From NCBI GenBank assembly GCA_001630475.1, contig KV419438.1, positions 1 through 60,570 of the forward strand: 60,570 nt of DNA. Reading direction: 5' to 3'. The DNA is from Sistotremastrum niveocremeum HHB9708. Taxonomy: Eukaryota; Basidiomycota; Agaricomycetes; Sistotremastrales; Sistotremastraceae. The notes beneath the pieces were generated by a model, which ran no database searches, was not told the origin of the DNA, and was given only the letters and a program-made list of their open reading frames with translations. Within the stretch, counting starts at the first letter, position 1. Every line of letters begins with the position of its first letter. A program made the translations under genes and the position numbers. Of this stretch, positions 13,951 through 48,523 are shown piece by piece.

Positions 13951-14844
13951 TTTGCCCAACAATTGGCCAACAACTTGTGTTTCTCAATCACAATCAGACT
14001 TTCGCCGTGCCTTGTGTCTTGCGCTCAATACGTTCAGAACGGTCGAGCTGAGCGACTCGGGAGTCGGAACACCTGACCTTGCTGGCCTCAACCTCACGTT
14101 CACGTATTCTCATTCACGCTGGTCAGCGTTGGCAATCCAGGATTTCCAACGCGACCTTTGATCATATCTGCTCTCCCCTCTCGAGTCGCTGTCAGGTACC
14201 AAGATGGGGAAAGGCAATCTCTTGCCTTCTAGCTTGATATGAGGCACTTAATTGGATGCCTCATGTTCCTCGAGAGTCGACCAAGAAGGCTACTCATGTG
14301 TACACAATCGGTCGTCTGGCATCATTCTCTCACGTAGTAACATGAAAGAGGCGTGTTCGAGCCATCATGACTCGTGTTCCTGGCCTAACTCTCGACGATT
14401 GAATGTGGGGATGAAGATTGACTATTGTGCGTTTCACTCCATATTCATTCATTACTTCTGTCTGTCGCTCATATACACATCAAGACCCATCTCAGTCCGG
14501 TTTCTTCGAAGAAATCTGTCAGACCATTCCACGGATAGGGGCTAACGCGATTTGATGATCTCGACCGATCGTGCAGAGGGCAACGCTTTTCCCTCACGGT
14601 CGTGAGCTCACTTGTGAATCGTTGAGAACATTGATCCATCATCGCACCGAGCATACCACTCGTCGAAAATCTGAACACCGGCCGGACGGATCTCTACCCA
14701 TTGTTGAGAACATGTCTCTTTCCCGAATAAGGGAATGTGCATGGAGGAGCACACAGCTCTGGAGGCACTGGTGTTCGCCTGGGTTTATAAAGAGCCGTTT
14801 GAAAATGGGCAGTCGTTCTCACGTAGTTCTCGCAAATGTCGCAA
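13951..14844. other. Intergenic, promoter side of gene A
   Basis: Several short frames exist but none has splice support or a recognised motif. TTTATAAA at about 14784-14791, some 50 bp before the gene A start, may act as a TATA element. Confidence 0.35.
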
Positions 14845-17301
14845 ATGTCGCAAGACTTCACTGAAGCCGGAATCAGTAAGCATCATTCTTATTATCCGTC
14901 TTGGTATGTATTGACACGTCATTAAGCTACCGGGAGTGGAGGATCTGGAGGGGGACGAGGGGGAGACGTTGGATCATACAACTCCTCTGCTGATTACCGA
15001 GGCGCCATCAACTATACCAAGTCGTATATCGATCCGGGTATGTCTCTGCACGATATAAAGGACGAGAACTGATCATCTTATTCTTCTAGGCAAGAAGTTT
15101 GTCAAAGATTGTAAGCGAATATTTACTGGGTACGAGCTTCGGCGATTGCTAAGGCATGCATAGTATTTGCACGGAGTCCTGGTGGCCCGACAATAATCAA
15201 TAATGCCGGAAACACTATAAATGATCACTCTTCTCAGTCCGTCGTGGACCAGTCGGTGACCACGAACGATACTTCGTCACACAATACCAACATCTTTGGT
15301 GACGCTGCCAGTCAGTCTTTCATGCTCATCTCTACATTAGATGCCAGTCTTATGTTACCGACAGCTCGCTGGATGCCTACCAAATCCCCCTTAGGAAGGA
15401 ACGTTTCGAGCGCATCCCGGTCCAGTCATACCTCGACGCAATCCTCCCAGTCGTCCAGAGAGTCCGAAGACTCGACTTCTGCTGTGTCTGGCGATACTGC
15501 CTCGGTTCGCACGGCTATAACGACTCCTCCTTCGTCACCCAGCGAGGCTGACTGCCCATCGCCTCCCACCCGCGAACCTTCTGAATCACCCGCTGCGTCT
15601 ACTGGATCCGCCGAACAACGCGGTCCAGGGGACTCCACCGAAACACGGACTCAGGCCAAGTCTTCGGATGTTTCGCGTTCCGTCACAGAGTCTCACGAGT
15701 CAATTGCGTCGAGTGCCAACGCCACGACCACTGCAGGTTCTGCTCCAGTACGCAGGCAATCTTCCAAATTCGATACGCCTCAGCCAAGCAAGCTGGAGAG
15801 CGCTCGCAATCAACAGACCCGGACAACAAGTCCACCGGCCGTGGCAGACCGTAGCTCAAACGCTCGACCGAGTCCATTTCGTACGCAAGTTGAGGACGAT
15901 CCGGACGAACGAGTTGGTGCAACAGCTCGCTCTCCGCCAGCCGCGGATTTCAACCACAATCGTTCTCCACCTCCTCTTCACGCCCCGCTGCCACAGAGAC
16001 CGTCGGAAGATGTGGTATCGGCCGGCTTGAATTCACGATTTGGCCCACGAGCGCAACCTCCGCCTCCTCGAGGAGAGGATACTCGGGACAACGAGTCATG
16101 GTTCTCTGTTTCAATACCCAACTCTGAGTTTCCATTTGAGGCTGCATCTCGCGCGTCTTCTCCTGGACTAAATGCGATGCCCTTCGTCTATGAGGAACCG
16201 CTGCAAGATATAGGTGTTGCTCCAGGTCCCGCATTTCCTATGCCCCAGATTCCCGGCTGCGGCTCTGCACGTCCCAATATGCGTTACACTGATCATCACT
16301 CTTTCGACGATCACTCTAGTGCACCCATGCACCCTCCACTTCCTCAACACTCTCATTCTTCTCCCGCTTATTCCGCTTATGCACGATCGCCGCGTTCGTC
16401 TTCACCATTCGAGCCGCCCATGGAAGCCCCTGGTTGGCGCGTTCCACCTCGACGTGTCCAGCACACAAATCAGCCCGAAACCAGGTATTCAAGTCCTCAA
16501 ATGCCGACTCCGTCAATGCCACCCCTTCAGACACCTCAGGCTCGTTTCGCTGATCCCGCGCGTCAGTATACGGATACGACTCCCCTTCCTTCAAGCGGCC
16601 ACACTTCGCATCCTCCTCCCCTACCTCCTCGATCTCGTCCTTCGCGGCCTTCTTCACCGCGCTCACATTCCAGCGCACGCTCTCCGCCTCCGAACCCGCC
16701 TCGTCGTACATCCGAACGCTCTCCGCCTGAATCCTCAGAGATGCTTTTCATCAGTGAAACTGTCCATGCGGCGATCGCAGACATTCTTTCGACTACACCA
16801 TCCTTGTCGAGCATCATCAGATCGGATCCTAGTCAAGGCAGATTGACGGTCGTTTGTCTTGCGATCTTGCATATCGCTCAATCATTTTTGGAGGCAGATG
16901 GCACTGTCCACGGGGTCCTCGGGCACGACATCAGTCTGAACAATTGCCCTCCAAATCTTCGACGTCTTATGAGCGAGCTTGGTGCTATTGGCAGGATTGT
17001 GCAGAGGATGAAACAGGAAGATGAAGATGCAGCGGTGGCCCTATCGTATAGCTTGGAAGATGCTGAACAAGATTCGGACAGCGACGACTCTTCCGAGCTG
17101 AATTTGGAAAGCAATATTGAGAGGCTGAAGAAACGGTTAATTGGGGAGGCTGGGTATCGCGGGTCTTTGACCTCGGAGACTGCGTGTGTGCGGGACGTTG
17201 AAGGTCGTATTGGCAGGTTGGGGAAACACGTGATGAGTTTGGGGTCTTTCAAGGAGAGGGAAGATATCGTCTTTGAGATCTTGGTCGGCGTTACTTCATG
17301 A
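14845..17301 (+). CDS. Cassette gene A: MSQDF / GRGGD / NAGNT modules, disordered middle, helical C-terminal domain
   Basis: I do not recognise this family; it is described here from its repeats in this window. Exons are 14845-14875 (31 nt), 14927-15037 (111 nt), 15090-15110 (21 nt) and 15164-17301. All cassette introns are phase 1. An ATG nine bases upstream (14836) is in frame and would add MSQ; residue numbers here use it (769 residues). A possible 42-nt intron at 15299-15340 would not change the frame. Residues 4-13 are MSQDFTEAGI. Then come a Gly-rich module (GGGRGGDVGSYN, ending KSYIDPG), GKKFVKD, and an Asn/Ser/Thr module (INNAGNTINDHSSQSVVD, then TTNDTSSHN). Residues 105-580 are Pro/Ser-rich and probably disordered, with one EAPGWRVPP motif. 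Residues 584-673 form a predicted helical domain (HGVLGHDISLNNCP, LMSELGAIGR) shared with gene B. No signal peptide is seen, so it is probably cytosolic. Confidence 0.8.
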
Positions 17302-18440: not shown

Positions 18441-20657
18441 ATCTCGCAAGATTTCTCTCAAGCTAAAGCTGGTGAGTCTCCTTAGGTTTGGAAATTATCG
18501 ATGATGTTTATTTCGACTCGTAGCTTCTGGTGACGGGTGTGGACGGCCTGGAGATATTGGATCTCACAGCCATGCCACTGAAGCGAAAGATATATATGGT
18601 TACGCAAAGACTTATATTGACACAGGTAAGACATTGACCTCCCGAGTGGGCCCTGAGAACTGACCCGTGTTGTCGCAGGTAGGCAATATTTGCATGGTTG
18701 TGAGTTGCTTGCTTTCGCGCTACCTCCCAGAATTACTGACGTATTAATATTTGAAAGTTTTGGGATCGACAACAATCATTCATAATGCTGGCAATACAAC
18801 GAATGACTACTCCAGTCAAAGCGTGACGGATCACTCAGTGATCCGGAATGATTCATCGACACATCAGAGCAATTATTATGGAACAGGTGAGAGTCATGCA
18901 TCTCTTGTTGACATCTTTTCATTGTATTCCTCTTAGGATACCCCAGAGGTACACAGTTTCCCTCGCCTACAACGGACTCGAGCTGTGGTTCGAGCGACTC
19001 ATCTCATTCATCCAGAAGCAAAGGATCGACGAAGTCGGCGTCAGATGCATCGACTGATGCCACATCAGCTCATACTCCCTTTACTACTCCTCCGGCTTTG
19101 CCTGATGTTCCTAAGCCGTCTTCTGCCACGGTTCATCCGGAACGTCGTGCACAGAGCCCCAATAACCAGGCTTCCCTTGACAAGGACGGCATTACTGGCC
19201 ACGAATCACCCATTACCTCACACTCTACTGAAGACTTATACGAAAAGGATGTTGCGAGCCGCGTCGCGAGCCCTTCAGACCCTCGGGATACAAAGGCTAG
19301 AAAACCTTCTCAACGTCGTCCAAACACACATTTGGCGGGCAGTCTCTGCAACGGCACCGGTTCTTCTTCAGCTTCCAAAGAGGCTATCGTGGAGTGTCCT
19401 TCTCATCATTGTCGTACGAGTGTCCCGATTGAACACCGCGCCTTCCCGCCGCAGAGAAATCGTCCTCCGTTGCCCCCACGTTCTTCACAACCGCACGCGG
19501 CCCATCACCATCACTTTACAGCGCAGCCGAGGCCAAACCATGTGCCTGCAGCCACTGGTGATTCATACTCTAGACCTCGTACCACGAGCTCATCGCATGA
19601 GCGCTCGCTTTGCGCTGAGGCATCGTACCTACGGCGCGATGGACATCCTCATACGCTATCTCGCAGTCAGAGTACCAAATCCTCTGAGGCATGTCTTCCT
19701 TCCGCAGAGCTCTCTCCTGCAGTCATCCTTGAATCTTCCTTACGCCCGTCTTCGCCTGTGCTGCGCTCGGCGCCCTACGCATTAGACCATGATGTGGGAG
19801 TCAGTGACAGCGGAAGGCTCTCGTCATTCATACGGGATGAACCAGGCAGTTATCAGGCCTCTGTTCCCAGACGCCCTCACGCATTCCCCTCTGATACAAA
19901 TCCCTCCGCTGACTTCACCCGGGTGAATTCGCATCCTGTCCACTCACCATTCTCCCATCACACCGAGCGATCTCTTGAACACAATTTTTATGATCGCCCT
20001 TCAAGCACGTCCTTTAATTTCCAACCTTCTTATGTTCGGCGAATGGCGAGTAGGTACGATCATGAAGCTGCAGATTCGTTCCATGATCCGTACAACGGTC
20101 ATGAGTATGAGCGTCGCCCCACGTCACCCGATACGGTTCAATTCTTCCCCCGCGCTTCGGCCAGCAGACAGTCTTCGAATCACTCATATTATAAACACCT
20201 ACCCCCACCCCCACAACCGCCCTCGCGCGCTCGACATCCAGCACGGTCTCCGACCCCAAATCTTGCTAGTCATCAACGCGACAGCGTGGAGCCGCAAAGA
20301 CTCATAGAGCTGCGCCAAGAATTCATGGAGGAAATCAACGCTACTCTTCGGAGTTCCTCTATCTTACCCCTGTTCGAGTCGGGCTCCAGACGAGCTAGAC
20401 CAGCTGCCATCTATCTATTGACCCTGCAGATGGTCCAGTCCTTCTTCACCGCAGAGACGATGGCGCACGGTCTACTCGAACGCGACATTACCGTCAAAGA
20501 TTGCCCTTCGCACCTTGTTGCTTTACTGAGCGAACTCGGCGCCATCGCGCGAGGATTTCAAAACAACGAACGTGATCTTTGTGATAAGGCGGGCTCGTTA
20601 GAAGTTCACGATGCCGTCGACGGAGACCCCTCGCCCCCGTATCGCGCGCGCTGCTGA
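18441..20657 (+). CDS. Cassette gene B, paralogue of A, with ATC at the start-codon position
   Basis: The architecture is the same as in gene A. Exons are 18441-18471 (31 nt), 18524-18625 (102 nt), 18679-18699 (21 nt), 18758-18886 and 18937-20657, with all introns phase 1 and 667 further codons in one frame. The first exon aligns with MSQDFTxAEI of the other members but reads ISQDFSQAKA. The start codon is ATC, and an in-frame TAG lies six bases upstream. Modules follow in order: GRPGDIGSHS...YAKTYIDTG, GRQYLHG, and HNAGNTTNDYSSQSVTDHS with RNDSSTH. Then comes a long Ser/Pro/His-rich stretch, and a C-terminal helical domain (AAIYLLTLQMVQSFF, HGLLERDITVKDCPSHL, LLSELGAIAR) homologous to that of A. 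Either translation starts at a non-AUG codon, or a further exon lies upstream, or the gene is dead. The intact 1.7-kb final exon argues against a long-dead gene. Confidence 0.7.
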
Positions 20658-22804: not shown

Positions 22805-22936
22805 TCTGTACATCTAATGCTAAATTTACTGAAATATTAGTTGGCTGACTAAGCACCTGTTCCTGTTTCCAGTGCACCCATTGAATTAACAATATTCGAA
22901 TTGGCTGCGCATGAAATCTCTAGGTACTGCTACTCG

Positions 22937-24563
22937 ATGAGCCCTCTCAGTGCTCACTATTTCATCTCCCAGTCTGACCCGTCACAGCTACAGACGCTCA
23001 GGGCCAAATTGGCCAAACCGGTGGCAGACCTTACAGCCCAAATCTTATACCCCAAGGAAGACGACGAACTCTGCATCTGTGGAGGTAATGCAGGCATATT
23101 AAAGGCACAATTGAATGGACAAACGGTTGCGGTGAAAGTGATGCGAGACATCCACGTTAGCAGAGAGCAGAGAGGTCGATTGGTTCGGGTATGTTTATAA
23201 CATGGACTTAGTGATTTCCTGGAAGAGAACTGATGGTCATGATCCAGCGAATTAACAGAGAATTGAGAATATGGAGCATGCTGCAAACGCATACGAATAT
23301 CTTACCGCTCTTGGGTTATTGTTTCTATGGTGGCAGAAACTATGCGTCCACATTTTCTCTTGTGTCTCCCTGGATGAAGAATGGCACAGCAACTAGCTTT
23401 GTCGCTTCCCGTCCAGAGGCGGATCGACTCAAGCTAGTATATAATTCACAGAGATGCGTTGGTCAAATGTAAATCAAGGCATCAGCTGGTTCAGGTTCTC
23501 GAGGGGCTCTCCTTCCTGCATCATCATAACGTTGTCCACGGAGACTTGAAAGGGGTGAGTTAGAGTTTGTCATACGAGAGCTCCGCTAAATTTTCTTTTA
23601 GGATAATATTCTTATAGCGGACGACGGAACTGCTCTGTTAGCAGACTTCGGTGTCTCGAGGCTCATCGAGTCGGATTCCACTATGGCCAGCGAATCTGCC
23701 ACAACGACAAGCAGTAGTATCACCGGAACTATTCGGTGGATGGCTCCCGAAGTAGTCTGCGGATCTGAATCAGTATCGAGCGCCACAATTGAAAGCGATG
23801 TATGGGCTGTGGGATGCATTCTGCTTGCAAGTCATCATGCGTAACCACACGAAACGACTCTAATGCAGTGTGCTCACAGGAACTGGTCGGCAACATCAAG
23901 CCCTATGCAAGATACAAACATCCCCCAAATATCATATTCGCCATGATGCATCGTAAAGCACCATTTGAATATGACTCGCGCTCGATGGGACCAGGCAATT
24001 TCAAAGATTATCCGGGTTTATGGACTCTGTGTTTGCGCTGCTGGTCCATTGATCCCTCGTTGCGTCCGACATCTCAGGATATGCACAGCGAACTGGTGAT
24101 TATACAGTGCGTATCCTTTCGCCTGCAATGGAAATATATTACTTACCTCCTATATTTCGGACGTAGATCATCGATCGCAATCCTGAATATAATCTCACTG
24201 CGTGATCTCAACAATGAAGCGGCTTCTCTCGATCTATCAAAGCCATCCCAGACTCCCAATGGGGAGGCAAGGTCCACTTTGCAGGATCACGATCTGACAT
24301 CCGGCGACAAACTAATTGTGACGTCCTCAGCCACAAGGCCTCTAATAAGAGGCTTTTCAAGAGTGGATCTAATAGTGGGTCTCACCCGTGCGCTTCGGGA
24401 CCTCCTCGACGAATTGCTCATCCCCGATGCAATATATCCGGTCTTTGACCATTGCCTGCAAGCCCTCGAGGACAAGCAACGGACCTTCAGGCCAGAAAGA
24501 AAAGAGACCCGCCGATTTCTTACTTTTTGTGTCCAGCTTCTACAGCTGTCAGATGATACTTGA
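22937..24563 (+). CDS. Tyrosine-kinase-like (TKL) protein kinase D with C-terminal extension
   Basis: Six exons close in frame: 22937-23188, 23248-23436, 23495-23554, 23602-23826, 23880-24106 and 24167-24563 (449 residues). Kinase motifs in order are a degenerate Gly loop (GGNAGIL), VAVKVM with the ATP-binding Lys, VVHGDLKGDNIL in the catalytic loop (HGD instead of HRD, common in mushroom TKL kinases), LADFGVS for magnesium, GTIRWMAPEV, SDVWAVGC and the final Arg in DPSLRPT. All catalytic residues are present, so it should be active. Roughly 110 residues after the kinase end in a helical stretch (DLIVGLTRALRDLLDELL, then FLTFCVQLLQLSDDT), possibly related to the C-terminal domain of A and B, but the similarity is weak. 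Intron 4 is GC-AG (donor GCAAGT). An upstream exon cannot be excluded. Such kinases are strongly expanded in Agaricomycetes. Confidence 0.85.
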
Positions 24564-24875: not shown

Positions 24876-26831
24876 TTAGTAAGAGTCAAAATAAAAAGCT
24901 GAACCCTGCTGTTCTACGTGATTGAGACGCGAACCCCAGGCCTGTACGGGCGGTGACGCAAGAGGAGGATACGCCTGATATGACCGGGTGGGAGCAGTAT
25001 GGGAACGCTTGATAGGACCGTATCGCTGAGGGCGATGGGTCTGTGGTTCAGGGAATGGCAAAGCAGATTGTTCCGGCGGGTCATAGTACGATTCAGGTTC
25101 GTCCTGTTCCAGATTCCACGTGTCGGCGGGTGTGCTAGGTGGGATGCGCCAACCTGGAGCTTCGGATAAAGGCTCATAAGACAAAGGTGATGCACTTCGC
25201 TGTGGCTGAGCCGGAAGATATGGAGTAGAAGTGGGATAGCGAGATACAGGAGGCTCCGCCGGAGGTGGAGAATACATCCTTGAAGAGGTCGGAGGAATAG
25301 CGTAGGTGTGGGGTTGAGAATTCGAGCGTGCAGATGCTGGACGACTGCGAGTCAAACGTGGGGTGGGGAATGCCATTGTGGGTCCTGAGATCGTATCAGC
25401 CCCGTCCAGAGGCTCTTGATAATATGAACTTTCGGGGACGCCGCGAAGAGGGCTCGGCGAGGGACACCTCCAGCCTGGAGCTTCAGAATAGGAAGTGGCA
25501 GGTGTTCCTGCTTGTGCAAGGCCAGGGTTTCTCCGGCGATGAGCTTGATAAGCTGGGAGATACGGTTGTTGATATTGCGCTGGCGTGGGCGGAGGTGGGG
25601 AAGGTGGCCCGTATGGCGAGTTCTGCTGAGGGGAAGTTGGACCTGGAGTGAAAGAAGACAATGTCGGAATATTAGGCAATCGTCTTCCCGCAGACTGCGG
25701 AGGTGGTCCTGGGGGTGGATTATATTGCGGACTATGCTGCGGTGCCGCATAAGAAGACGGAGTGAATATGGGCTCTGATGGAGCATGATTCGATGGGTAC
25801 GGTGGCATAGGCGGTTGAGATATAGGATACGAGACGAACGATGTGGCCGGATATTCTGGGTGATCTTGATTGTGAACCGAGCTGACATGTTGCTCGTCCG
25901 AAATGGGAGCCAGAGGTTGCTGTGCCAGTGGTCCAACTGAAGCAGCGGGTGCGTTCACTCTGTCACCCTGCAGGTTTTCAACGGTAGGTAAGTTTGAGCC
26001 TGCGGGATATGCGGCACTTCCAGGCGGATGGAGATTGAGAGCTTCTTTGGACGTGAAGGCGTCTGGTGAGTTAGAGCGCGGTCCTGGTATCCCAAATTCT
26101 CCAGAAGAAGCAAGCTGAGATTGGTCTCCGCCAGAGGAGGATATGGGAGGAGTGAAGGCCGGTGGCACAGAGGTCTGAGTCGAAGGAGTCGCCGATGAAG
26201 ACTCTGACTGTACGGCGCTACTCATAGCGATGGATTGCACACCCGGTGCTTGACTGCCTGGAGTGCCTTGGGGATCATTAGGGTGGAGACCAAGTACTGT
26301 AGCAAATGGTCTGAGTGAGCTGTGCCATGAAGAGAATCTGAAAGTTCCTACCGTTTGAATTGTGGTCATAGGTGATCATCGTACTATGCGTCGACGTATC
26401 GTGCCTTGTGATTGACGAGTCGACGACGGACTGGGATGAATTATCGGTGAATGTGTTTCCTGAGTTATTGATTGTGGTCCGCCCCTGAGATGCTAGAGCG
26501 GCAGCTGAAAGGTGGGATTAACTTTTGATCACGGAAGATAAGCTACAAATTGTTGCATACCTGCTGTTGTGGCATCCATTGGACCTGAGAAGAGCAGTGC
26601 GCGGTCAGCTCTGGTGGATGATGGAAGTCGAGGTGACTCACCTTTGGTGATATACGATTTAGTAACGCTCACGGACCCATGAGAGTCAGTCGTGCTATTG
26701 TAGGAACCAACGTCTCCTCCTCGTCCGCCTCCGGAGCCTCCGTTTCCAGACGCTTACGACAATGAGCAAATGTCAGACCTCAGTGTATCTGGTGACTCAC
26801 CTATTTCCGCGTTCGTATACTCTTGCGACAT
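24876..26831 (-). CDS. Cassette gene E: GRGGD and NSGNT modules with long Pro-rich tail
   Basis: Five exons close in frame: 26831-26801 (31 nt), 26752-26642 (111 nt), a 24-nt exon near 26590-26567, 26504-26352 and 26296-24876, for 579 residues with every intron phase 1. The start MSQEYTNAEI matches the other members. The Gly-rich module reads GGGRGGDVGSYNSTTDSHGS and ends KSYITKG. The Asn/Ser/Thr module reads TINNSGNTFTDNSSQSVVDS, then RHDTSTHS. The rest is a low-complexity Pro/Gln/Ser/Tyr-rich region. It contains two EAPGWR(C/I)P motifs, also found in gene A, and PADTWNLEQDEPESYY. Unlike A and B, it lacks the helical C-terminal domain and ends in SAFYFDSY. No signal peptide or membrane span is seen. 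The function is unknown; the cassette marks it as a member of the cluster family. Confidence 0.8.
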
Positions 26832-27998: not shown

Positions 27999-29911
27999 TC
28001 ATTCGAAATCATATTGGATCGAATGTCGTATGTTCCACGTGTCCTCGTAATCCGCGTTGGAGTTGTCATAGGAATAGGGTACGCGGGGTTCTCTGCGAGC
28101 GTCGGTGGATGTTTGCTGAGGGAGATCGAAAGTCTGGGCTCGAGGAGTTTCGCAATAAACGAAGTCCTCGGGCGATGCAGCATGAGCCGAACGGAAATAC
28201 GTAGACGATGAGTGACCTTCGTAAAAGCTGGCACTCTGAAACGAATCAGGATACCCTCGGGGCGGCATGTGATGAGGATAGTGTTTGTTAGTGTATGAGT
28301 AGATTTGTGTATCAGTAGTTCTCCTAGTGGCCGCGAAAATTTGTGGGGCAGGGAAGGAAGGCTGAGGCATGATGGTCGAGGCATGTATAAACTCATGAGT
28401 GTGAGGAGGTGAATTGGGGGAAGGGGCACGCTGGAGGGCAGTCGCCCGTAGCCTAGGTGAGACGCAGGGCATGGGAATGGGCATCGACAAGGGCGGAGCA
28501 ACATAACTAATCCGGGGTGAAGACACGAAGCCGGCAGACGGCTCAGCAGGATGATACTGCGACCATTCGATCGGTGCCGTGGGGTTGGATGACATGGGAG
28601 CATGAGATTGGCGAGGGGAGTATCCTACTGTGGAATCAATCGCCTGGACGTGATGATTGGCTACCCGGGGTGATGATGGAGTAGACACTGGCGATCGAGG
28701 AGGCAAAGACTGCGCAGCCGAAGACGGCGAACAATCATAGGCGCGATCACTGATCTCAATTCCGCGTCTGACAGACTGCGGGGAAGAAGGAAGGCGAGGG
28801 CTGGCAGTTGCACTAGGGGATGTCCGACTTGTACGACTAAAAGCCAGATCGCCCTCCACCTCGTTCCGTGTCGGCGGTATAGGGGGCTGGGGAGGACTCC
28901 CCGTTATAGTTGTAGGATTGGCTACGGGTGCTATGCTTCCTCGCGAGCCAGGTGTTGCGTCGTGATTCTCGCGCGGCGCGACCAACTCGGTTTTGTGGTC
29001 GACATCGACTATGGGCAAGGGAGGTGGAGCGCTCTGGCAGGGCGAAGATACGAGAGATGATAATTCGTCCGCCGGTAACGGAGAGCTCTGGCGTTCCGCT
29101 TCACGAGGCGGAGGTGCAACCGAGGGTGCCTCAGCGTGAACAGAGCTTTCGGCAGTTCTGGGACCAGAATGATGTCCCGAAGAATCGTCCGCAGAAGAAG
29201 GCACCATATCATCTTCCAGAGTCGGGGATTCGGGTATTGTTGGAAACGCGTATCGCGAAGCATTATCATTTGACGAGACGGAGGTCGAAGAATCCGATTG
29301 AGCAACACTGAATGATGAATCGGTCGATAACGTAGATTGACTTCCGACAGAGTCGCGTCGTGCAAGACAGACAGCGGCACTCATCATAGGATCTGATGCC
29401 GACACATGTCAGCAAACGTGATGACTAAGCTCGCAAGGCGCAAACCTGGGACCCCATGAAATGCGACGACATGACTTGAAGAATCATTGTGTGTTGTTGA
29501 AGCGTTCACCGACGATTGACAAGAGTTATCATTAATGGTATTACCAGCGTTATTGATGACGGTGGAAGCTCCGGGTATACGAGAGAGCCCTGTCGACGAG
29601 TTCAGTCTGAGAAGAAGCAATGCATAGAAGGATGTAGCTGACAATCGGTGACGGTCTCGTTGACATATTTCTTGCCTAAGGATTGATTAGTCCTAGCTCA
29701 GGCCTACATGTTGAAAACACTTACCAGTGTTGAAGTATGACTTGAAATGGCCGATACTTGAGTGCGTATGAGGCTTTCTGCCGACGAGATGGTCTTGTCC
29801 GTGATGATTCGACTTGTCACTGACATGAGCTGGCGCGATTATCAGACGACGTTAAAAGACACGGCCATATCGAGACTCACTCGCTTCCGCTTCGGTGATT
29901 TCGGGCGCCAT
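27999..29911 (-). CDS. Cassette gene F: Gly-rich module replaced by a His-rich one
   Basis: Five exons close in frame: 29911-29881 (31 nt), 29829-29725 (105 nt), 29675-29643 (33 nt), 29589-29446 and 29392-27999, for 568 residues with all introns phase 1. The first exon reads MAPEITEAEA, the same length as MSQDFTxAEI. An in-frame ATG at 29935 would add MFDQLVLA. The second exon has lost the GGRGGD repeats and is His-rich (SNHHGQDHLVG...THSS) but keeps the end FKSYFNTG. The third reads GKKYVNETVTD. The fourth carries INNAGNTINDNSCQSSVNAS and THNDSSSH. A long Pro/Ser-rich tail follows, with no EAPGWR motif and no A/B-type helical domain, ending in ADYEDTWNIRHSIQYDFE. This is a diverged but intact member, useful for judging which cassette parts are constrained. 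Confidence 0.78.
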
Positions 29912-31400: not shown

Positions 31401-32907
31401 CTACCAGCCTGGCCATTCGTAATCAGGAGGCACAGGCAACGTTGAGCGGCGAGCAATGATCCCTTGTTCATGGGATCCATTCTGCGTGAACAAGTGGGGT
31501 TCTGGAATATGGCCCACCCATTCTTCATCATACGAAAGGGCCTTACTGGGTCGCTGACTCGAAGATATAGGGGATGAATCCCAAGGTCGGGGGGTTGGCA
31601 TCGATATGATATGAGTTGACTGACGAGCCTCATCTTGGGATATGACCGCTGGCTCTGAATAATATTGGAAATCTTCGAGAGCTGGGCGATGCACCTCCGG
31701 TAGAGAATATACTGAAGAAGTATAACTTGACGGCGAAGAGTTCGCAGGCGACGCATCGTGACTAGTTAAAGGAGTCTGAGGACCCATCGGGCTCTGCGCA
31801 CTGCTGTTATGGGATTGTGGAACAGAAGGTGATGATTGCTTTGGCAAATTCGGCTTATGCTCATGCACAGACGCGCTTCGATGCAGATGACTGGGGTGCG
31901 GTGGCACAGGAGGGGGACCAAGGGGGATGACACCAGGTGCTGGCTCGTGACGAGGTTGGACGGCAGAGGGTGAGTTGGGCAGAGAGTTCAATGTCGCAGG
32001 GGATTCGGGCTTGCTCAGCGCAGGAACTGCACTCGTTGTGCGATCTACTTTCGGTGTTGTGGAGGCCGAACTCCTCTCCTCTCCCTTTTGCGATACACTC
32101 CGATTTTCGGTCGGGGATGCGGAATGCGGGATAGATACGATGTCGGTAGAAAGAATGACATCGACCGTTGATTGGGGCGAGTTGGCCGACGACGCTTCCT
32201 CAACGGCTGCACTGTGAATGGAGCCCTTGTCAATCGAAACAGGGAGCTCCTGTGCGTTCGCAGTTGAAGACGGGGCTGAGGGTTTAGAGTGAGTGCGGCG
32301 GTGACCGCCCCGAGTGATAGTGCCGATGTTCACGAAGAAAAAAGCTAGCCATCACGATGAGACGATGACAGAGTATAGCACTGATAAATTCTGACCCGAT
32401 TCATCGCGATGCAACGAGACGACATGAGTGGACGTGTCATTGTGAATTGTCGAGTTATCAACGACAGATTGAGTGGAAGTGGTGGTGATGGTGTTCCCAG
32501 CATTGTTGATCACTATCGTCCCAGACCCGTTTGCAGGAATCACTGTCATTGATATTTCGAGTCAGCATTGTAGACAGATCGATGTGAAAGGATTGGCACT
32601 CAACGGCTGCTGACTATCTTCTTCCCTGAGATCCGATAAGAGAGTAAGAATCTGTGAAAATTGTACACCGAACGTGAGAGTCTTACCTACATCAATTCCT
32701 TGGGAGATATATCCGTTGGCGAAGTAGGTCTTAGCATCATTGATAGATCCACTGGCGTCCGTCGTAGTGTTATGCGCGCCGATATCACCACCACGCCCGC
32801 CATCCGACCCATTTCCGGACGCTGAGAGAAAAAATGAGCCGTCTGGTATAATCTTTGAGCAGAAACATAATCTTACATATTTCAGAACCAGTGAAGTCTT
32901 GTGACAT
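31401..32907 (-). CDS. Cassette gene G: GRGGD and NAGNT modules with Ser/Pro-rich tail
   Basis: Five exons close in frame: 32907-32877 (31 nt), 32821-32687 (135 nt), 32625-32605 (21 nt), 32542-32396 and 32344-31401, for 425 residues, all introns phase 1. The start is MSQDFTGSEI. The Gly-rich module is GGRGGDIGAHNTTTDASGS, extended by eight codons to GYISQGIDVG. A GKKIVSS exon follows. The Asn/Ser/Thr module reads INNAGNTITTTSTQSVVD, then IHNDTSTH, the most regular copy in the window. The tail is disordered, rich in Ser, Pro and His, and ends in PPDYEWPGW. An aromatic PGW ending recalls the EAPGWR motif of A and E. No helical C-terminal domain is present. Confidence 0.8.
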
Positions 32908-33989: not shown

Positions 33990-34499
33990 ATGCCAACTCA
34001 AAGCTTCAGAGGCGCTAAAATAAGTAAGTGTTGATCTCTCCCACCGGCTACGGATACACTAACTTTATCGTGTTGCACCTCTCAGAGACCGGTACCGGCG
34101 GTTCGGGAAGTCTAGGAGGTACAGGTGGCCGTGGTGGAGATGTAGACTCTGGCAACAGAAACTCCGGAAAACAAGACTTCGGAAATTCGACTATCGGTAT
34201 GTCTTTCCCATCGTCGAAATTATGCTCGCTCACGATGAGACTTAGTAACGGGACATGGAGGATCTGCTGGCCGTTCATGGAGACTATGGGGCGGACGGGG
34301 CGGACGAGGTGGTGACATCGGTTCCAACTCTATCGGCGATACCGATCAAGACTTTTCGAACGCCGACATGGGTGAGTATCTGTTTCCATGATATGATACA
34401 TGATAGTGAGATATCTTGACAGAAACTGGACACGGCGGGCACGCTGGGACAGGCGGCATCGGTGGTCGAGGTGGAGACATCGGCTCTGGCAATCAGTAA
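33990..34499 (+). CDS. Gene H: small protein of three tandem GRGGD modules
   Basis: Four exons close in frame: 33990-34023 (34 nt), 34086-34196 (111 nt), 34246-34371 (126 nt) and 34423-34499, for 115 residues, all introns phase 1. The first exon reads MPTQSFRGAKI, in the place of MSQDFTxAEI. Each later exon carries one Gly-rich module: GGTGGRGGDVDSGN, then GGRGGRGGDIGSN, then GGIGGRGGDIGSGNQ before the stop. The second module ends DFSNADM, an echo of the MSQDF exon. No NAGNT module, tail or other domain is present. It looks like a free-standing copy of the Gly-rich part of the larger proteins, made by exon duplication. It might bind or compete with them; that is speculation. Expression is unproven, but splice sites and frame are clean. 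Confidence 0.7.
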
Positions 34500-35045: not shown

Positions 35046-37785
35046 TCACGACTGTGTGGTTTTCTTTTTCTTGGCAAACACAGAAAGGAGCTTTTTGCCC
35101 AATTGCTTCTTGCTATTCGGAGTCGTGACGTTGGTAGATTCAGTGGTTTGTTGGTCGGGAGCCTCACTGATTGAAGCGAACGGAAGGTCAGACCCATAGG
35201 TAATATCAGGAATCGGTAAGAATTCCAGGGACTCAAAATCTTGAAAGAGGGCGATGGTCGGATCAGCAATTCTCATATAATCGACAAACGGGGACCTAAA
35301 TCCGCATTAGCTACTGGCACAGTAGGCGGACTCCGAGAACTCACACGTCAAACTTGACTTTGTCGTTGCTAAGTTGAAGATTTCGATCGCAACAGAGTGG
35401 GTCAAGCGACAATGACCAGAATCCGGGCGGGTCGGATATAGACCCGTCTGGATTGGGCGGATGTGCGAAGTAATGAATGGGTGAGGGTTGGTCTTCAAGT
35501 ATCGTGATAGAAGTATCGACATTTGAATCCTGTGCCACAGACTAAGGATGCTTAGTACAAGTCCGAATTTCAAGACAGTGGAAGGCTCACCTAACCGGAG
35601 TGAATGAACGTCGACCGCAAGGTCTCGGGCAAGCGACAGTGCGGAACGATGAAAGAACTCGGAAAACTTCTTTTGTGTGATACGACTCAGCAAACGTGCG
35701 GAGATGGATTTCCTCTCCTGAACAAACGTTGAATGACCATCTGCAGCACTCACACGGTAAGCGAAGAAATCGAGACGATCGAAAGTAGAACCTTGTAAAC
35801 CGCTCGACCAATGTTCCTACAATTGCCTGCCACTCTCCGTCGTGTCGCTGAGAAGCAGAGATGTAATATTGCAGGGGATCTGCAACTGGGAATTCATGGA
35901 CGAGAGGCATTGGATGCCAGGCATCTCCTTCGATGTATCCAATTTCCCCGGTCGAAGACGAATTCTCTGTTCTTTCTCCAGTCTCACTAAAGTCGCTCCA
36001 CATCTTCAGATAATCCCATAGAACTCGAGCATTGTCTTCTGTTTTCTCTTCGCTCCACTTTCTCACTGCTTCCCTCGCTTGTTCGAACCAATCTGCATAG
36101 AATTCAAAAGACTTGCGCCCACTTGCAGATATATCTGTGCTTCTTGAGAATCTGTTACGTCGCAAGAAACCCTACTCACCGTTGCCGTCTCTCAGCTGTT
36201 CTCCATCAGCCAAAGGCCTTGGCAATTGAGGATTGCTCACCTTACAAAATGCTCCCCACATTCGCCAACCCGAATCTTCACAGCGGCTATCCATTCTTCC
36301 CATTCCTCCCATGCACAATCGCCTATCCTTTGCACTCAAAAGAACTTCGTGACACTGCTTGAGCCCATCAGCAGCCGCTCGTGCCATATATTCAAAACAC
36401 TCACCTGCCCTGTCCATGACCCTCTGTGATCCCGAAGGAACTTGTATCCTGTCTGTGCTTTGTTAATGAACGACTAAGCGCTTCAAGGATAGGTCGCACC
36501 ACAAATTCAGACATCTATGCCCTCGTTAGCCACACATAGAAACAATTACGAGGAATGCTTACAATGCGAGTGACTTCAGTAAGATAACCGAGACCGATAA
36601 AACCTTTGAGGTGATCATATGCGCCGACCGTGCCTTCCAAACCAGTAATTTCAGTTCTATACTAGGCACACATGGCTGTCGCCTCACCATCTTCAACGAC
36701 AATCATCTTTGTTCTCCGGCTAGGAACAGAAATACCGAGGATTCGGGCGAATAGACTATGGCTGCATCCAGCAAGGATATCGTAAACGACTCCTATCACG
36801 GTATTGGCGCAGGACTCACAGCAGGTCTCGACGTAACTCGATCTATCTATCAAAGGCATGTCCGGCTGCATCATCACATGCGTCCATAGTCTGGAACTTC
36901 CTCACTATGACGGCTTTTTGGCGTCCAAGTGGATCGAGCATTTTGCCGTGTCCTATCCGAATGGTGTATCCTCTCTTCTTGACGCAAGTAACCTCCTCGA
37001 GGAACGAGATATGTTCCGTTGGTATCCGGCGAATCTGGTAGAGTTTATTTCGTCTTATTTGGCTTTGCATTTTCAGACTTATACGCACCTCATCTGGTTC
37101 GTCCCAATTTTGAACTGCAGTCCTTTGGGTATCCAGTCTCAAGGACATGGATCGCATTCCATTCACGAGAGTCGTTAACTTGTTATCAGCGGCGATTGAG
37201 AATTCAAACTTTGCATTGAATCAGCGGATCAAGTCTTCTTCGTGTCAATATCAAGACTTACAATGTACATCTGGTACGCTTCGTTCAGCTCGTCCAGACA
37301 CTCTTTTGTCTCCTCTTGTACACTGCTCACTCTAAAGATGCTTTTCCTTTTCCAACTCGATCCTATTCTTTCGACCGTCCTTGATACGTCTTCCAGAACT
37401 CTGGCGGTAGCGTTCATCCTCGCGTGGATCGAGCAACAAGAGTGATAGCACGTACTTATGATAACGCTCCAGACGTTCCCTGAGATCATCAGAGAGTTCT
37501 TCTTCCTCGTCTAATCGGTTGAGCACTGATATATGCTCAGCAGCTCGTCTTGCGATATCAGCACATTCTTCTTTATTGACTCGAACTCGCTGTCAGTCTT
37601 ATTAGCAATAATATTACCATTATGAGTATATAGTCGCTAGAACAAACCTCTGCAATTTCCAGAAGCGCGATACCTACTCCAGCGATAGCTTTCAATATCC
37701 CACCATGAGGGACTGCTTCGCCGAGACCCTGCACGATCTTGAGCGCCGATAGCAGACTCGAAGTCGTGTCCGCTGAGAGGGGCAT
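35046..37785 (-). pseudogene. Gene I: MLKL/HeLo-like helical bundle plus kinase-like region, with an in-frame stop
   Basis: The N-terminal 150 residues read as four to five amphipathic helices. The first exon (37785-37648) encodes SSLLSALKIVQGLGEAVP and GILKAIAGVGIALLEIAE. The second gives VNKEECADIARRAAEHI and LRERLERYHK. The third gives MNATARVLEDVSRTVERIG and ECLDELNEAYQMYI. This matches the pattern of the MLKL_NTD/HeLo-like adaptor domain common in mushrooms. Next is a degenerate kinase-like region: GYTIRIGHGKM, KAVIVRKFQ (VAIK-like), HSLFARILGISVPSRRTKMIVVEDG. No HRD or DFG is found. An in-frame TAG at 36843-36845 interrupts it (AFDR-stop-IELRRDLL). Further minus-strand exons down to 35046 (WFEQAREAVRKWSEEK, WHPMPLVHEFPVADPLQYY, a Lys-rich end) probably belong to it, but I could not close them. 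The intron near 37422 would be only 37 nt. It may be a recent pseudogene or a truncated product consisting of the bundle alone. Confidence 0.6.
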
Positions 37786-38751: not shown

Positions 38752-38819
38752 TTCCACACCAACAGCTCTCTGTTCGTTACTACATCCTCCTCACCCCCCA
38801 TTCCACTCTCTCATACAAC

Positions 38820-40331: not shown

Positions 40332-42384
40332 ATGTCCCAGGACTTTACACAAGCAGAGATAAGTGAGTACCGAAGTACCAATATAGCGCAAGAGACGCTG
40401 ATTGTACCAAGCTTCCGGAGATGGCGGCGCAGGTGGTGGACGAGGAGGGGACATTGCATCCCACAATATCACCAATGATTCCCATGGATCAATGAACAAC
40501 CCCAAGTCTTACATCACCAAGGGTATGCTTCCCGTTGCTCGATGTATTCTCATCCTGACCTCCGCCATGATACCATCAGTCGGCATAGATCCAACGTCAG
40601 GTACGCATTCCAGGTTCGACTTAGAACTTCACAACTGACGGTGTCCAGTCTTCGCCTCAGGGGGGCGTCCGGCTGATAGCTCAAGGAACACATGGACTGA
40701 TCATTCATCCCAGTCTCTGGTGGATGCGTCGGTCACCACGCACGATACTTCCACTCGCAATATATCGCACGTTTTCGGAAGTGAATGTGAGAGCTTTTCA
40801 ATATATTTCTGCCCATTACTGAGCCTAACAGTCGTATACACAGTACCGTCTTCGATGCCGAATATTGATCACTTATTACGAATTCACTCCTTCGACGATG
40901 ATCACCCGGCGCTCAGTGTCCCCCTGCCTGACTCGCCCACATCGTCTCGTCAATCTCAGTCTTCTGTTCCTTCCGCTGTCATGCCGTCCAGGTCACATTC
41001 GAGAGATCGCGGGAATGTGCCAGCACTTAAATCAGACCATGCACCTTTGATCGCGCCGACGCAGGCATCCGCGAAGAGACCAAAACCGTTGCCGGAAGGC
41101 TCTCAACCTGAGTCTTTGACTACAACGACATCCACTGAAACTTTAGTCCCTTCGAGGCGAAGTCGGCCTCCACCGCCCATACACATTCAGAGCCCTGAAA
41201 ATTCTCCAAGCGAAATGTTTAGTACCCCAGGGCCAATTAATCCGCCGCCAGCCGAAGCGGACAGTGATTACCTACTTCCTCAGATCAGTTATCAGGTTCC
41301 GACAACGTCCACAAGCATTATAGTTCCCGGATCGACCCAACATCCTCAGCCAGAGCATCAAAAAGCCAGTGAAGATGTTCTCACCGTGACAAGCCATGAA
41401 CCTCCAAAGGATGACCATCAGGGGACAACCGGCGACCCACCGGATAGTTCGCTCAAGTTGGTTGAGCTGATCGGCAAGCGTACGTCGCCTTCCGCATTCG
41501 TGTTTCTTGAGTGATATTTATTTATTTTCCTTCCCCTTCCCAGTGGTACGCACAAGGGAGAGCGGAGGAGGTATGTAACATTCCTACGTGGTCAATCTTT
41601 AACCATTGATTTATCTCTCTTCATCAGGTGATGCAGAGTGGCCCGCGTCTTCAACCCCAGGGAATGCTTTCACCGATGCTTCTCATCAATCGGTCATGGA
41701 CCACTCGGTCACAAAGCACGATGCTTCGATCACCAACATCACTTACACATACGAGAAAACCAGTGAGCTTTTCAACAATATCACCACACCCACACATTCA
41801 TGTGATCAGTTTCAGCAGTGGGCTCTGGACCAGACCATACTTCTGGCGTCATGAAGACCGAGTCGACTAAAATCCAATCCACCACACTCTCCGGAACTCA
41901 TCCCGACTCTGTGTCAATTCCTTCCGTTCTACCTGCCCACCTTGAAGGACCCCAGACCTATTTGATGCCACAAACTCCTTTGGCTACTCAAACGTCTTCC
42001 ATCGACCCCCCTGACATTGTGGAGAATGTCGCACAGGAGGAACCCCCGGCCTCAGAAGATGGCGTTCCTGATATTCGTCAAGTTGGGAATAACCAAGTCC
42101 TATCGACTCCGGAAGATACATCTAAAGCCGTAGACGAACCTCGCCAGGTCGAGGCAGTCCAGGTAGTCGAAGCAGTGAAGGCAGAGGAGTCAATGGATAT
42201 CACAAAACCGGCGATACCTGATGCTCTTCAGTCAGCCCAGTTAACCCTTGTGGAAAGAACAATCATATACGCACTATTTGCGGCGTATTGCATATACCTT
42301 GCTAGCTTTTATGTAGGTGGTAAAGTCAAAGTGTATTTGGCATCGCCATCGCATGATTCGTTGACTGTGCAAATCAGCTACTAG
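40332..42384 (+). CDS. Cassette gene K: two NAGNT-type modules and a C-terminal membrane anchor
   Basis: Eight exons close in frame: 40332-40362 (31 nt), 40412-40522 (111 nt), 40580-40600 (21 nt), 40649-40780, 40844-41479, 41544-41570, 41628-41762 and 41810-42384, for 555 residues, all introns phase 1. The start is MSQDFTQAEI, and the Gly-rich module is GGGRGGDIASHNITNDSHGS ending KSYITKG. The first Asn/Ser/Thr module is altered (SRNTWTDHSSQSLVDASVTT, then HDTSTRN). A second copy sits in exon 7 (PGNAFTDASHQSVMDHSVTK, then HDASITN). The linker shares SRRSRPPPPIHIQSPE with gene M. The last 60 residues have one hydrophobic helix (TIIYALFAAYCIYLASFYVGG) followed by about 23 residues, so it is probably tail-anchored. 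It is the only membrane-bound member. A degenerate second copy of its C-terminal half lies at 47.8-48.5 kb. Confidence 0.8.
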
Positions 42385-42387
42385 TAC

Positions 42388-42423
42388 ACCGGTAGCGTTT
42401 ACTAGCGATGAGCAGCTACCGGT
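42388..42423 (+). terminator. Short hairpin just after gene K
   Basis: ACCGGTAGC (42388-42396) and GCTACCGGT (42415-42423) are perfect inverted repeats with an 18-base loop, four bases after the gene K stop codon. The hairpin could lie in the 3' UTR and affect RNA stability or end formation. It is not kept in the paralogous fragment near 48.5 kb, so it may be chance. Confidence 0.3.
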
Positions 42424-43517: not shown

Positions 43518-44720
43518 ATGGACTACTCTGTTAGTGATGCTAAACACGACCTCACAAACAGTATCATCTTTGCGGAGAACAGCTGGGTTACAAGTGGAGG
43601 ATATGCCGATATTCACAGGGGGTGGTACAATGGTCAGACGGTTGCTGTCAAAGTGATACGTGAAGCAAGGGTATCAAATCGTAAGATATCAACCGTCCTG
43701 CGGGTAAGTCTTTGTTTCTTGTCAACGAACTATTAGTACCTCATCCGGGAATGTGAAGAATCTTGAAAGAGAGAGACGACTGTGGTCAAGCATGCACCAT
43801 GAAAACATCATTCCATTTCTAGGAATCTGTTTTTATCCTGGTGACAATCGAATCCAAGGTGATCTGATCTTCTCGCTGGTATCACCTTGGATGGAAAATG
43901 GGACTATACATGACTTTCTGAAGAGAGAGCGTACGTCAAACCGCATCGACCTAGTAAGTCATTCTGAGCCCTGCTTCCTGAACAGTCCATTAATCCCAAA
44001 GGACACGTATCAGTTGCGGGGCGTTCTAACTGGTCTTACATATCTGCACTCTCAGAATATCATCCATGGGGACCTCAAAGGAGTACGTCACCAGTTTCAC
44101 AAGGGTCGTGACTCATAACATCCAGGATCATAGGGAAATATTCTGGTCTCCAATGAGGGGAATGCAATGTTGGCCGACTTCGGCTTAGCACAGATGGTAG
44201 CAACCGATCCAACACTTACATATATGATGTCCACAAGTTCCACCCTTACCAATTTGGGGGGAACAGTAAATTGGATGGCCCCAGAATTATTCGAAGAGAT
44301 GGAATCGATCCCGAAGCTGACCTAGCAAAGTGACGTTTGGTCTTTCGGATGCGTTGTACTCGTGAGCACGGACGCGCGTTTCCATTATCATGCATTATTG
44401 TGGTGCTTATCGAGAGTCAGTAATTGATCGCGGGTTGCATTCCGTATCAGTTCTGTCGCAGGCCAGCCAGCGTCATATCTGCAGTCATGCGTGAGACTGC
44501 ACCTTTTCCGTCTCCGGAGCTGGCAAAGAGTACCACCAGTGTGCCCGATGAATTCGAAGAATATCCCAGACTTTGGGATCTCTGCCGACGCTGCTGGAAA
44601 TTCGATCCCGAATCTCGCCCGCTTTGTGTGGATATAGGCATCGCATTCTTCCCACCACGGAGATGCGACACTGCAGGGATAGAGGACCCCCAGGTACGTA
44701 AACTGGAGGCTTCCTCCTAA
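43518..44720 (+). pseudogene. TKL kinase L, disabled by two nonsense codons
   Basis: This is a paralogue of kinase D. Exons 43518-43703, 43759-43953, 44014-44082 and 44134 onward stay in one frame. Motifs are GGYADIHRG (Gly loop), VAVKVI, IIHGDLKGGNIL, LADFGLA, GGTVNWMAPELF and SDVWSFGC. A TAG at 44323-44325 stands where kinases have a charged residue before QSDVW. A second stop, TAA at 44421-44423, stands at the start of the next exon, where kinase D has GAA (ELVG). Downstream parts are still recognisable (EYPRLWDLCRRCWKFDPESRP). Loss therefore looks recent. A good donor (CAG|GTACGT, 44694) near the end splices in register into the cassette relic M, which suggests an ancestral kinase-cassette fusion. 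Confidence 0.7.
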
Positions 44721-44747
44721 GATCATATTCTGACTCTCCCTTGTACG

Positions 44748-46592: not shown

Positions 46593-46779
46593 CATTCTCC
46601 TTCCCAGAGTTCCCACAGCTTAGTCGCGATTAATCCGAATACGGAGACCACGATATATCAGAGGGCAACAAAAGCGAGAGGGCATAAGCGAGTTCGGAGA
46701 TAAGAGTATAAGACCGCGAAGACAACGCGACGAGCTGTGGGAGCCTCTGGCACAAGATGACATCCGTTTCCGATCCGAA
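46593..46779. repeat. Left arm of a long inverted repeat
   Basis: This arm matches the reverse complement of 47310-47468 continued at 47684-47711, with about one mismatch in 187 bp (CGCGG against CGTGG). The two arms are 530 bp apart. The right arm is interrupted by a 213-bp TIR element plus the duplicated TA. The near identity means a recent origin or ongoing gene conversion. Confidence 0.85.
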
Positions 46780-47309
46780 GTGTTTGCACCTGCTTGCCAG
46801 TCACGGTTGCCTTCAACATGGCTGGCGGAACATTCTCATCTTGCACCCGTTTGGAGTGCCTGTTGTATCCAGAAACTACCTATTAAAATACTAGATGTTG
46901 CCATATTTTTTGAGGAAATTTACAGCCTTGGTACTTCGAATCCGCGAGCAGCACAATAATATTCATACAGTCTTGCTGGTTTCTGTAGGTTGACGTTGTT
47001 GAATACACAGATTTTGGGGTTGTTCTCTTAGTAATGAGTTTGAATGATCGATTTGGATTTTATCGACGCTTCGAGGGACATCTCGTTGCCTTCACTGCCC
47101 GCTTTGAGTTCCTCGAGAGATTTCTTTGAAAAATCATTCTGACAGAAATTAGAGTGATTCCCACCTTCTTTCTGGGGGCATTAAGTATTAAATTATCTCC
47201 TGCATCAAAATTCAATTTCCCGCCCTTTGGGTCCCATACGTCCTCAAAGAAACCCCTGCATCAGGTTTCTCTCGGGTTTCCGAAAGAGTGACATCGAGTG
47301 ACGGGTGAT
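46780..47309. other. Spacer between the inverted-repeat arms
   Basis: This is 530 bp of A/T-rich sequence without a gene, motif or internal repeat that I can recognise. Together with the arms it has the shape of a foldback unit, but no transposase is present. Confidence 0.4.
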
Positions 47310-47711
47310 TTCGGATCGGAAACGGATGTCATCTTGTGCCAGAGGCTCCCACAGCTCGTCGCGTTGTCTTCGTGGTCTTATACTCTTATCTCCGAACTCG
47401 CTTATGCCCTCTCGCTTTTGTTGCCCTCTGATATATCGTGGTCTCCGTATTCGGATTAATCGCGACTACAGCTGGGGACAGAACGATAGGCGTTTTGGAA
47501 AAAAATACAATAGGAAGTTTGGCCCCACTTTTTACTATATTAGGATGGAAATGACATCTATTTTGGAGCCGGACGAGTCGACGTGAGAATTGATTACCAA
47601 ACATGGCAAAATTCGGAGCTTTTGGTAGTGGGGCGTGTGTTGTATTTTTTTGCAAAACGCCTATCGTTCTGTCCCCAGCTGTAAGCTGTGGGAACTCTGG
47701 GAAGGAGAATG
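47310..47711. repeat. Right arm of the inverted repeat, split by an inserted element
   Basis: Positions 47310-47468 and 47684-47711 together form the reverse complement of 46593-46779. The insertion between them replaces a single TA of the left arm by TA-element-TA. This right arm also borders the relic of the K C-terminal half. Confidence 0.85.
47469..47681. mobile_element. 213-bp MITE with TA target duplication (element 2)
   Basis: The ends are inverted repeats: CAGCTGGGGACAGAACGATA at the left and its reverse complement at the right, extending through AGGCGTTTTG with a mismatch or two further in. It is flanked by TA on both sides (47467-47468 and 47682-47683), and the left arm of the large inverted repeat shows the site with a single TA. 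There is no coding capacity. The size and TA duplication fit a Tc1/mariner-type non-autonomous element. Confidence 0.85.
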
Positions 47712-47757
47712 AGTTGTTGCTACCATTGACGATATCGATCACGCGGCTTTCGCGAAA

Positions 47758-48523
47758 ATGACCCCTCTCCCCGGTTCTCCCACTCGAGTACCTTTGCAGC
47801 TCAGAATTGAAGGGCCCCAGACCTACCCGATCCCTCCAGCTGCCTTGGTCGCTGAAATGTCTTCCGTCACTCGGACTCGCTCCCCCCGATACCATGAAGA
47901 ATGTCCCACTGGTCCACTGGAGGAGACCTCGGTTTCTGAAGAGGAGGACATTCCTGATACTGTGCTCCAACAAACATATGTCCCAGTCACATGTCACAGC
48001 ACCTCTCGTTGGGACACTAAAAGGTGTCCCGTCACCTGTCACATAGAATTTTGGGACACTTTTCATATGAAATAAATTTTCAAAAATCATTTTTCGCCCC
48101 AGAAAAGCGATTTGGGACACATTTTTTCTTCTGGTCACACACAAATTTTCAGTTTGAGACAGTGGGACACTTGGTTCATTTCTGTCACATGTCACGGGGG
48201 TAGGGACACTTGTTTGTTGGAGCACAGTATTCGTCAATCAGAGAGGATCCAAGCCTTACCGACTCCGGAAGACGCACCTAAAGCCGAAGCCGAAGTTCGC
48301 CAGGTGGAGGCAGTCAAGGCAGAGGAAGCCGCAGACGATTCAAGACCAATGATGCCCGATGCTCCCCAATCAGCCGATTTAACCTTTGCTGAGAGAACGA
48401 TTATATGCGCGTTTTATCGCTGCGTATTGCATATATCTGGCTAGCTTTTACGTAGGCGGCAAAGTGAGAGTGTATTTGGCATCGCCAGACCCCGATTCTC
48501 TCACTTTGCAGATCAGCTATTAG
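47758..48523 (+). pseudogene. Relic N: second copy of the gene K C-terminal half
   Basis: The translation aligns with gene K from LEGPQTY to the stop. Shared pieces are EGPQTYPIPP, the acidic LPTPEDAPKAEAEVRQVEAV, PDAPQSADLTFAERTII and, after a shift of frame, ASFYVGGKVRVYLASPDPDS and LTLQISY. Two lesions are seen: a 268-bp TIR element inserted at 47960-48227, and a one-base insertion within the membrane-anchor codons near 48413-48425. No cassette exons lie upstream, so the copy is 5'-truncated as well. Confidence 0.8.
47960..48227. mobile_element. 268-bp MITE with TA target duplication inside relic N (element 1)
   Basis: The terminal inverted repeats start with CTGTGCTCCAACAAACA and continue TGTCCC after two mismatches (about 25 bp). 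TA flanks it at 47958-47959 and 48228-48229. Gene K gives the empty site: GATATTCG, where N has GA-TA-element-TA-TTCG. Inside are further GGGACAC/GTGTCCC palindromes and GTCACATGTCAC motifs, but no coding frame. It fits a Tc1/mariner-type MITE of a family different from element 2. Confidence 0.88.

Follow-up and report, generated by a model that had tools for sequence, protein, structure and literature searches.

The HET-s/HRAM and RHIM motifs are short, contain repeats, and act by homotypic assembly. Glycine-rich N-termini with a GGxGG-type start occur on NACHT and kinase proteins of mushrooms. In Agaricomycetes, amyloid-like motifs on NOD-like receptors (NLRs) and lone MLKL-like proteins have been described (PMC9815663, PMC10197012, PMC3937382). 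A beta-arch is predicted for the NLR05, NLR08, NLR22, NLR29, and NLR44 motifs (PMC9815663), and genes for FslK, the fungi-specific tyrosine-kinase-like kinases, are expanded in Agaricomycetes (PMC3937382). The parts examined of these three papers do not mention the gene cassette that is the subject of this text. The cassette lies within bases 1 to 60,570 of contig C45 (KV419438.1; 289,075 bases) from the 34.7-Mb genome of Sistotremastrum niveocremeum HHB9708; this whole stretch is referred to as the window. Six genes in it (A, B, E, F, G, and K) have in common an N-terminal cassette of four small exons with identical phases. We conclude that they belong to an exon-modular family that is real, old, and constrained, and that is apparently undescribed as far as searched and apparently confined to a single cluster in the genome.

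The cassette and its genes

The four exons encode, in order, MSQDFTxAxI, GGRGGDxGSYN…KSYI, GKKFV, and NNAGNT…SQSVVDxS…NDTSSH, and are 31, about 111, 21, and about 140 nucleotides (nt) long. In all six genes the length of exon 1 is 1 modulo 3, and that of each other exon 0 modulo 3. Splice models were made by hand, with splicing inferred from phase, frame, and splice-site conservation, and all modelled cassette introns are GT-AG. Five of the models, those of A, B, E, F, and G, have an open frame as far as the stop. In K, splicing was modelled for the four cassette exons alone, and the sequence beyond them was read as open frames. The genes, with cassette exon lengths in order, are as follows.

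14845..17301, plus strand: gene A, 753 amino acids (aa); cassette exons 14845-14875, 14927-15037, 15090-15110, and 15164-15298 (31/111/21/135 nt); tail exon 15341-17301
18441..20657, plus strand: gene B; exon layout as in A (31/102/21/129 nt); start reads ATC-TCG-CAA, with ATC in place of A's ATG; tail frame open
24876..26831, minus strand: gene E; cassette (31/111/24/153 nt) with GPMDATTA at the GKKFV position, plus a Ser/Pro-rich tail; no domain found in the Pfam scan
27999..29911, minus strand: gene F; cassette (55/105/33/144 nt; exon 1 is 31 nt if the second ATG is used) that retains exon 1, KSYF, GKKY, and NAGNT and has lost GRGGD; alternative upstream ATG at 29935
31401..32907, minus strand: gene G, an intact cassette gene of 425 aa (31/135/21/147 nt)
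40332..42384, plus strand: gene K; cassette (31/111/21/138 nt) with VGIDPTS replacing GKKFV; a second NAGNT-type exon (41651-41758), giving two in all; predicted C-terminal membrane anchor
33990..34499, plus strand: gene H; exon 1 followed by three Gly exons of the GGRGGD type, without a NAGNT exon; related gene on contig C59
44836..48523, plus strand: a broken K-like gene (earlier M and N) with colinear DNA matches to K

The initial annotation, made from the sequence alone, had placed the cassette motifs at positions that our motif scans bear out. Its description of a modular family in local duplicates on both strands, with a common N-terminal cassette and differing C-termini, is likewise supported. 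Of its six intact or near-intact genes, all have the shared exons and phases; B, however, has ATC for ATG, and F is without GRGGD. H had been counted as a reduced cassette gene. We regard it instead as a separate small Gly-exon gene, in which the start MPTQSFRGAKI is followed by three GGRGGD exons and no NAGNT exon. Its relative on C59 (about 2950-3550 of region L071) has the start MPISFAGAKL, a 31-nt first exon before GT, and three Gly-rich stretches; the kinship is drawn from this shared gene layout, the sequence match by itself having an expect value (E) of 0.125.

Because the internal cassette exons are flanked by phase-1 introns, the reading frame would survive the loss, doubling, or exchange of any of them. 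The exon changes fit such symmetric modules: the Gly exon of F is replaced, K has a second NAGNT-type exon, and H carries three Gly exons.

The proportion of differences between cassettes, calculated for 15 gene pairs, was 0.70-0.90 at synonymous sites (pS) and 0.26-0.49 at nonsynonymous sites (pN). The synonymous distance (dS) was beyond correction in 13 of the 15 pairs, and synonymous sites are near saturation. Only two ratios of nonsynonymous to synonymous distance (dN/dS) could be computed, 0.18 for A-E and 0.15 for K-E, and both are rough because of this saturation. Judged by these substitution patterns, the duplications are ancient and purifying selection acts on the cassette. The proposal of a rapidly evolving family was thus not borne out for the cassette, whose protein is constrained while its synonymous sites are nearly saturated.

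Genome searches with exon 4 of A and with exon 4 of E as queries each recovered seven places, all of them in the cluster; the six other copies matched at E 1.4e-9 to 0.085 for A and at E 1.4e-9 to 8.4e-5 for E. Matches of this strength exceed chance. Pooled, the two queries account for the copies in A, B, E, F, and G, two in K (K1 and K2), and one in M, eight altogether. The sensitivity of these searches is limited: exon 4 of A missed K2, and exon 4 of E missed the M copy. The GRGGD exon (exon 2) of E matched five places in the genome, all in the cluster, and missed the M copy and the Gly exons of H. With exon 4 and exon 2 queries of this limited sensitivity, neither further clusters nor other domains behind the cassette were found in the 34.7-Mb genome. 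The coding pattern NN(A/S)GNT has five sites in the genome, four of them in the cluster (reversed-pattern control: 0). An NNSGNT site on C31 was rejected as a family member because its frame is broken by stops.

We also ran profiles of both exons over the window and over 36 further regions (L036-L071) together with L022 and L035. In the window the profile of exon 4 found its eight copies and nothing else, and outside the cluster it gave nothing better than E 0.66; the exon-2 profile found nothing outside the window and, inside it, a second, weak Gly copy in M (E 0.0036). The genome has 57 NACHT matches, 52 of them over the cut-off, and the profile covered 4.5 kb upstream of 32 of these 52. None of the 32 upstream regions examined contains the cassette, and one Gly-repeat pattern run over them returned a single poly-Gly run.

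Among the cassettes and tails scanned against Pfam (the tails of A, B, E, and F, two K tail stretches, the cassettes of E and F, the whole of G, and H, with the cassettes of A and B left out) and NCBIfam (A cassette, A tail, and K tail), there was no match over the cut-off. The single Pfam listing was a leucine zipper below the cut-off (E 0.03) in the C-terminal domain of A. The earlier statement that no described family matches therefore holds for the Pfam and NCBIfam scans made. In the parts of the literature consulted, a search for the cassette motif strings found no fungal protein family with the cassette. Literature searches also found no paper joining the terms glycine-rich, NACHT, and Basidiomycota, and none joining septal pore, intrinsically disordered, and Agaricomycetes. 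Such a family can easily be overlooked by annotation, its N-terminus being scattered across tiny exons.

Tails, C-terminal modules, and neighboring genes

Tails were analyzed without the C-terminal domain in A and B; for K, the tail was the 211-residue stretch that separates the two copies of exon 4. Pro makes up 13-21% of the tails, Ser 14-19% (Ser plus Pro 31-35%, sums of rounded values), and order-promoting residues 13-20%; hydrophobic residues are few, and the tails look disordered. The tails had been described as variable. Their C-termini do differ, but the tails have more in common than is apparent at first: the A-B, A-E, and E-G alignments score above 200 of 200 composition shuffles. 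The A-F alignment beats all but 2 of 200 shuffles and E-F all but 5, whereas the other ten of the 15 pairs are unremarkable, with 14 to 170 of 200 shuffles reaching the score. A contains the string EAPGWR once and E contains it twice, and G ends in EWPGW. We rejected EAPGWR as a genome-wide motif; of its five sites three are in the cluster, a site on C29 runs into a stop, and the remaining site is on C34.

Three C-terminal features were delimited.

16738..17295, plus strand: C-terminal domain of A, shared with B and with C13:28081-28353; probably helical, from a low-confidence model only
20301..20612, plus strand: C-terminal domain of B, shorter than that of A
42262..42318, plus strand: transmembrane segment predicted in K; mean hydropathy 1.8 over 19 residues

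The A/B domain has one further copy, on C13, at 44% identity. That copy is carried by a 396-aa open frame (3428-4615 of region L070), and no cassette exon was found in the 8-kb region. The structure model of the A/B domain has a mean predicted local distance difference test (pLDDT) score of 45.5 and is not usable. The C-terminal tail of the neighboring kinase kin1 was considered as an instance of this domain and ruled out (E 15). The hydrophobic segment of K starts 40 residues before the end of the protein.

The broken K-like gene had been read as two relics, M and N. It is better described as one gene, since three segments of K align, in unchanged order, with 45374-45522, 47807-47868, and 48228-48523 (DNA 68-74% identical), and the gene is split by insertions. 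The end of its tail is 81% identical to K over 42 residues and keeps the predicted anchor end. Two elements were delimited within its span.

46593..47711, no strand assigned: terminal-inverted-repeat element of 1,119 bp; perfect 9-bp target duplication AGTTGTTGC (46584-47720 with the duplication)
47957..48230, no strand assigned: inverted-repeat element of 274 bp, resembling a miniature inverted-repeat transposable element, inside the broken K-like gene; 28-nt inverted ends (93%), TA near both edges

The 1,119-bp element has 30-bp perfect terminal inverted repeats and contains two nested inverted-repeat pairs, with 159-nt arms 99% and 44-nt arms 98% complementary; we take its size to be Mutator-like.

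Three genes of other kinds lie among the cassette genes.

22937..24563, plus strand: kin1, a protein kinase gene (PF00069, E 4.9e-38); tyrosine-kinase-like; no cassette
43518..44322, plus strand: kin2, a kinase copy, the part before an in-frame TAG (PF00069, E 5.4e-29 on that part)
36850..37785, minus strand: N-terminal part (approximate) of an MLKL_N gene, spliced by eye (PF22215, E 1.3e-7, 31.6 bits against a cut-off of 27)

The kin1 protein matches kinases in the PDB, including IRAK4. Its gene model requires a GC-AG intron (23827-23879, GCAAGT donor) between two kinase exons. With its one in-frame TAG, kin2 is probably a pseudogene. The minus-strand gene from 37785 meets the MLKL_N cut-off of Pfam on the N-terminus spliced by eye; an unspliced genome search with MLKL_N did not recover it, and the sole match, on C58, was below the cut-off. 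With kin1 as query the genome gave at least 61 matches, of which kin2 was the eighth. Since kinases of this type are common in the genome, their location beside the cassette genes is weak evidence of a connection and may be due to chance.

Elsewhere in the window, the same GGRAQDSGC peptide is encoded on the minus strand at 7913-7939 and 13397-13423, ~5.5 kb apart and with similar flanks, which points to an unrelated duplication.

Possible functions of the cassette proteins

The reading that we tentatively favor is that the genes form a tandem family of long standing, whose products would be largely disordered scaffolds that self-assemble through their N-termini. A homotypic module, built from the Gly-rich exon together with exon 4, which is rich in Asn, Ser, and Thr, would allow paralogues to co-assemble. 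The tails would display short binding or phosphorylation motifs, such as EAPGWR in A and E, and the C-terminal modules would bring the assembled proteins to a membrane or to a partner. Paralogues would have arisen through exon gain, loss, and doubling without frame shift. The reading is supported by the phases conserved in six of six genes, pN relative to pS, the cluster-only matches, the composition of the tails, the predicted anchor of K, and the A/B domain. Exon 4 contains a weak internal 15-residue repeat (TxNDxSSQS / TxNDTSSHN), whose score is reached by 14 of 1000 column shuffles. The best of five AlphaFold models of this exon is all strand (residues 10-12, 17-28, and 31-42). Together with the Gly exon, the repeat and the strand model suggest that the cassette could be a self-assembly module on disordered scaffolds.

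Several observations weigh against this reading. The self-assembly step itself rests on inference. The cores of exon 4 are only 13-19% hydrophobic, which we judge low for a beta-arch amyloid motif. The 12 PDB hits of the exon-4 profile to E 10 include no known prion or amyloid structure, the best match being aspartate transcarbamoylase (E 0.0092). Both structure models are of low confidence (mean pLDDT 57.1 for exon 4 and 45.5 for the A/B domain). The repeat test reaches only moderate significance, to which the Ser/Thr/Asp-rich composition contributes.

The low-complexity composition, the one RGG within GGRGGD, and the long Ser/Pro tails with their PPLPPR-like stretches would also suit disordered structural proteins of another kind (septal-pore, cytoskeletal, or RNA-granule), in which an RGG-like Gly-rich exon drives condensate formation or RNA binding. 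We consider this possible, though on balance unlikely: each cassette has a single RGG, with a conserved Asp after it, and F is without RGG. RNA-binding proteins of the RGG-box kind would be marked by several clustered RGG repeats or by an RNA-binding domain; the RGG of the cassettes stands alone, and the Pfam scans found no RNA-binding domain.

More doubtful is an amyloid-templated cell-death cluster, in which the cassette would be a basidiomycete amyloid signaling motif that couples the MLKL_N protein to a receptor or kinase, as in the RHIM-based RIPK-MLKL and the HET-s-based NWD2-HET-S pairs. Consistent with this are the MLKL_N gene and two kinase copies among the cassette genes, the two-fold repeat and strand model of exon 4, and the amyloid-like motifs of Agaricomycete NLRs and lone MLKL-like proteins reported in the parts consulted of PMC9815663. 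However, exon 4 is polar, the nearness of the abundant kin1-type kinases may be chance, and the motif was not found in any gene of the kinase, MLKL_N, or NACHT kind (window profile; 32 of 52 NACHT upstream regions). An amyloid signaling motif (HET-s/HRAM, PP, sigma, RHIM) would be expected on both a receptor and an effector of the genome. No such pairing was found: at the sensitivity of BLAST, and over those NACHT regions, exon 4 occurs in cassette genes only.

That the genes are decaying, mostly non-functional tandem duplicates, as the missing ATG of B, the stop in kin2, and the insertions in M/N might suggest, is highly improbable, because A, E, F, and G are open over 425 to 753 residues despite near-saturated synonymous sites, and splice sites and phases are conserved. 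Less probable still is a necrosome-like system without a matching NLR, in which cassette proteins would polymerize N-terminally and, as adaptors, connect a tyrosine-kinase-like kinase with a pore-former of the MLKL_N type encoded among their genes, with exon differences between paralogues setting the specificity of assembly and possibly self/non-self recognition.

If the cassette proteins are scaffolds that self-assemble, the cassette would be an amyloid-like or condensate-forming mushroom module carried by disordered scaffolds, not by a receptor, in a cluster that also has genes for MLKL-type proteins and kinases. Assembly-based signaling in fungi would then reach beyond NLRs, with a compact and testable locus. 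If the cassette does not self-assemble, the genes still form an old, constrained exon-modular family, undescribed as far as searched.

Comparison with known systems

The resemblance of the cassette to the HET-s/HRAM and RHIM motifs would be one of kind only, by analogy. Exon 4 has no sequence match to the solved structures of these motifs among its PDB hits, and no matched receptor-effector pair was found with the cassette. FslK, as described in the parts consulted of PMC3937382, resemble the kinases of the cluster in that both are tyrosine-kinase-like. This likeness is by kinase type only, and it concerns neighbors of the cassette genes rather than the cassette proteins. The motifs of the NLR05, NLR08, NLR22, NLR29, and NLR44 families (PMC9815663, parts consulted) are on NLRs, whereas the cassette was found on no receptor and is followed by protein sequence that looks disordered. 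Compared by description, these motif families and the cassette are alike in being short, fungal, N-terminal, and repeated across many paralogues.

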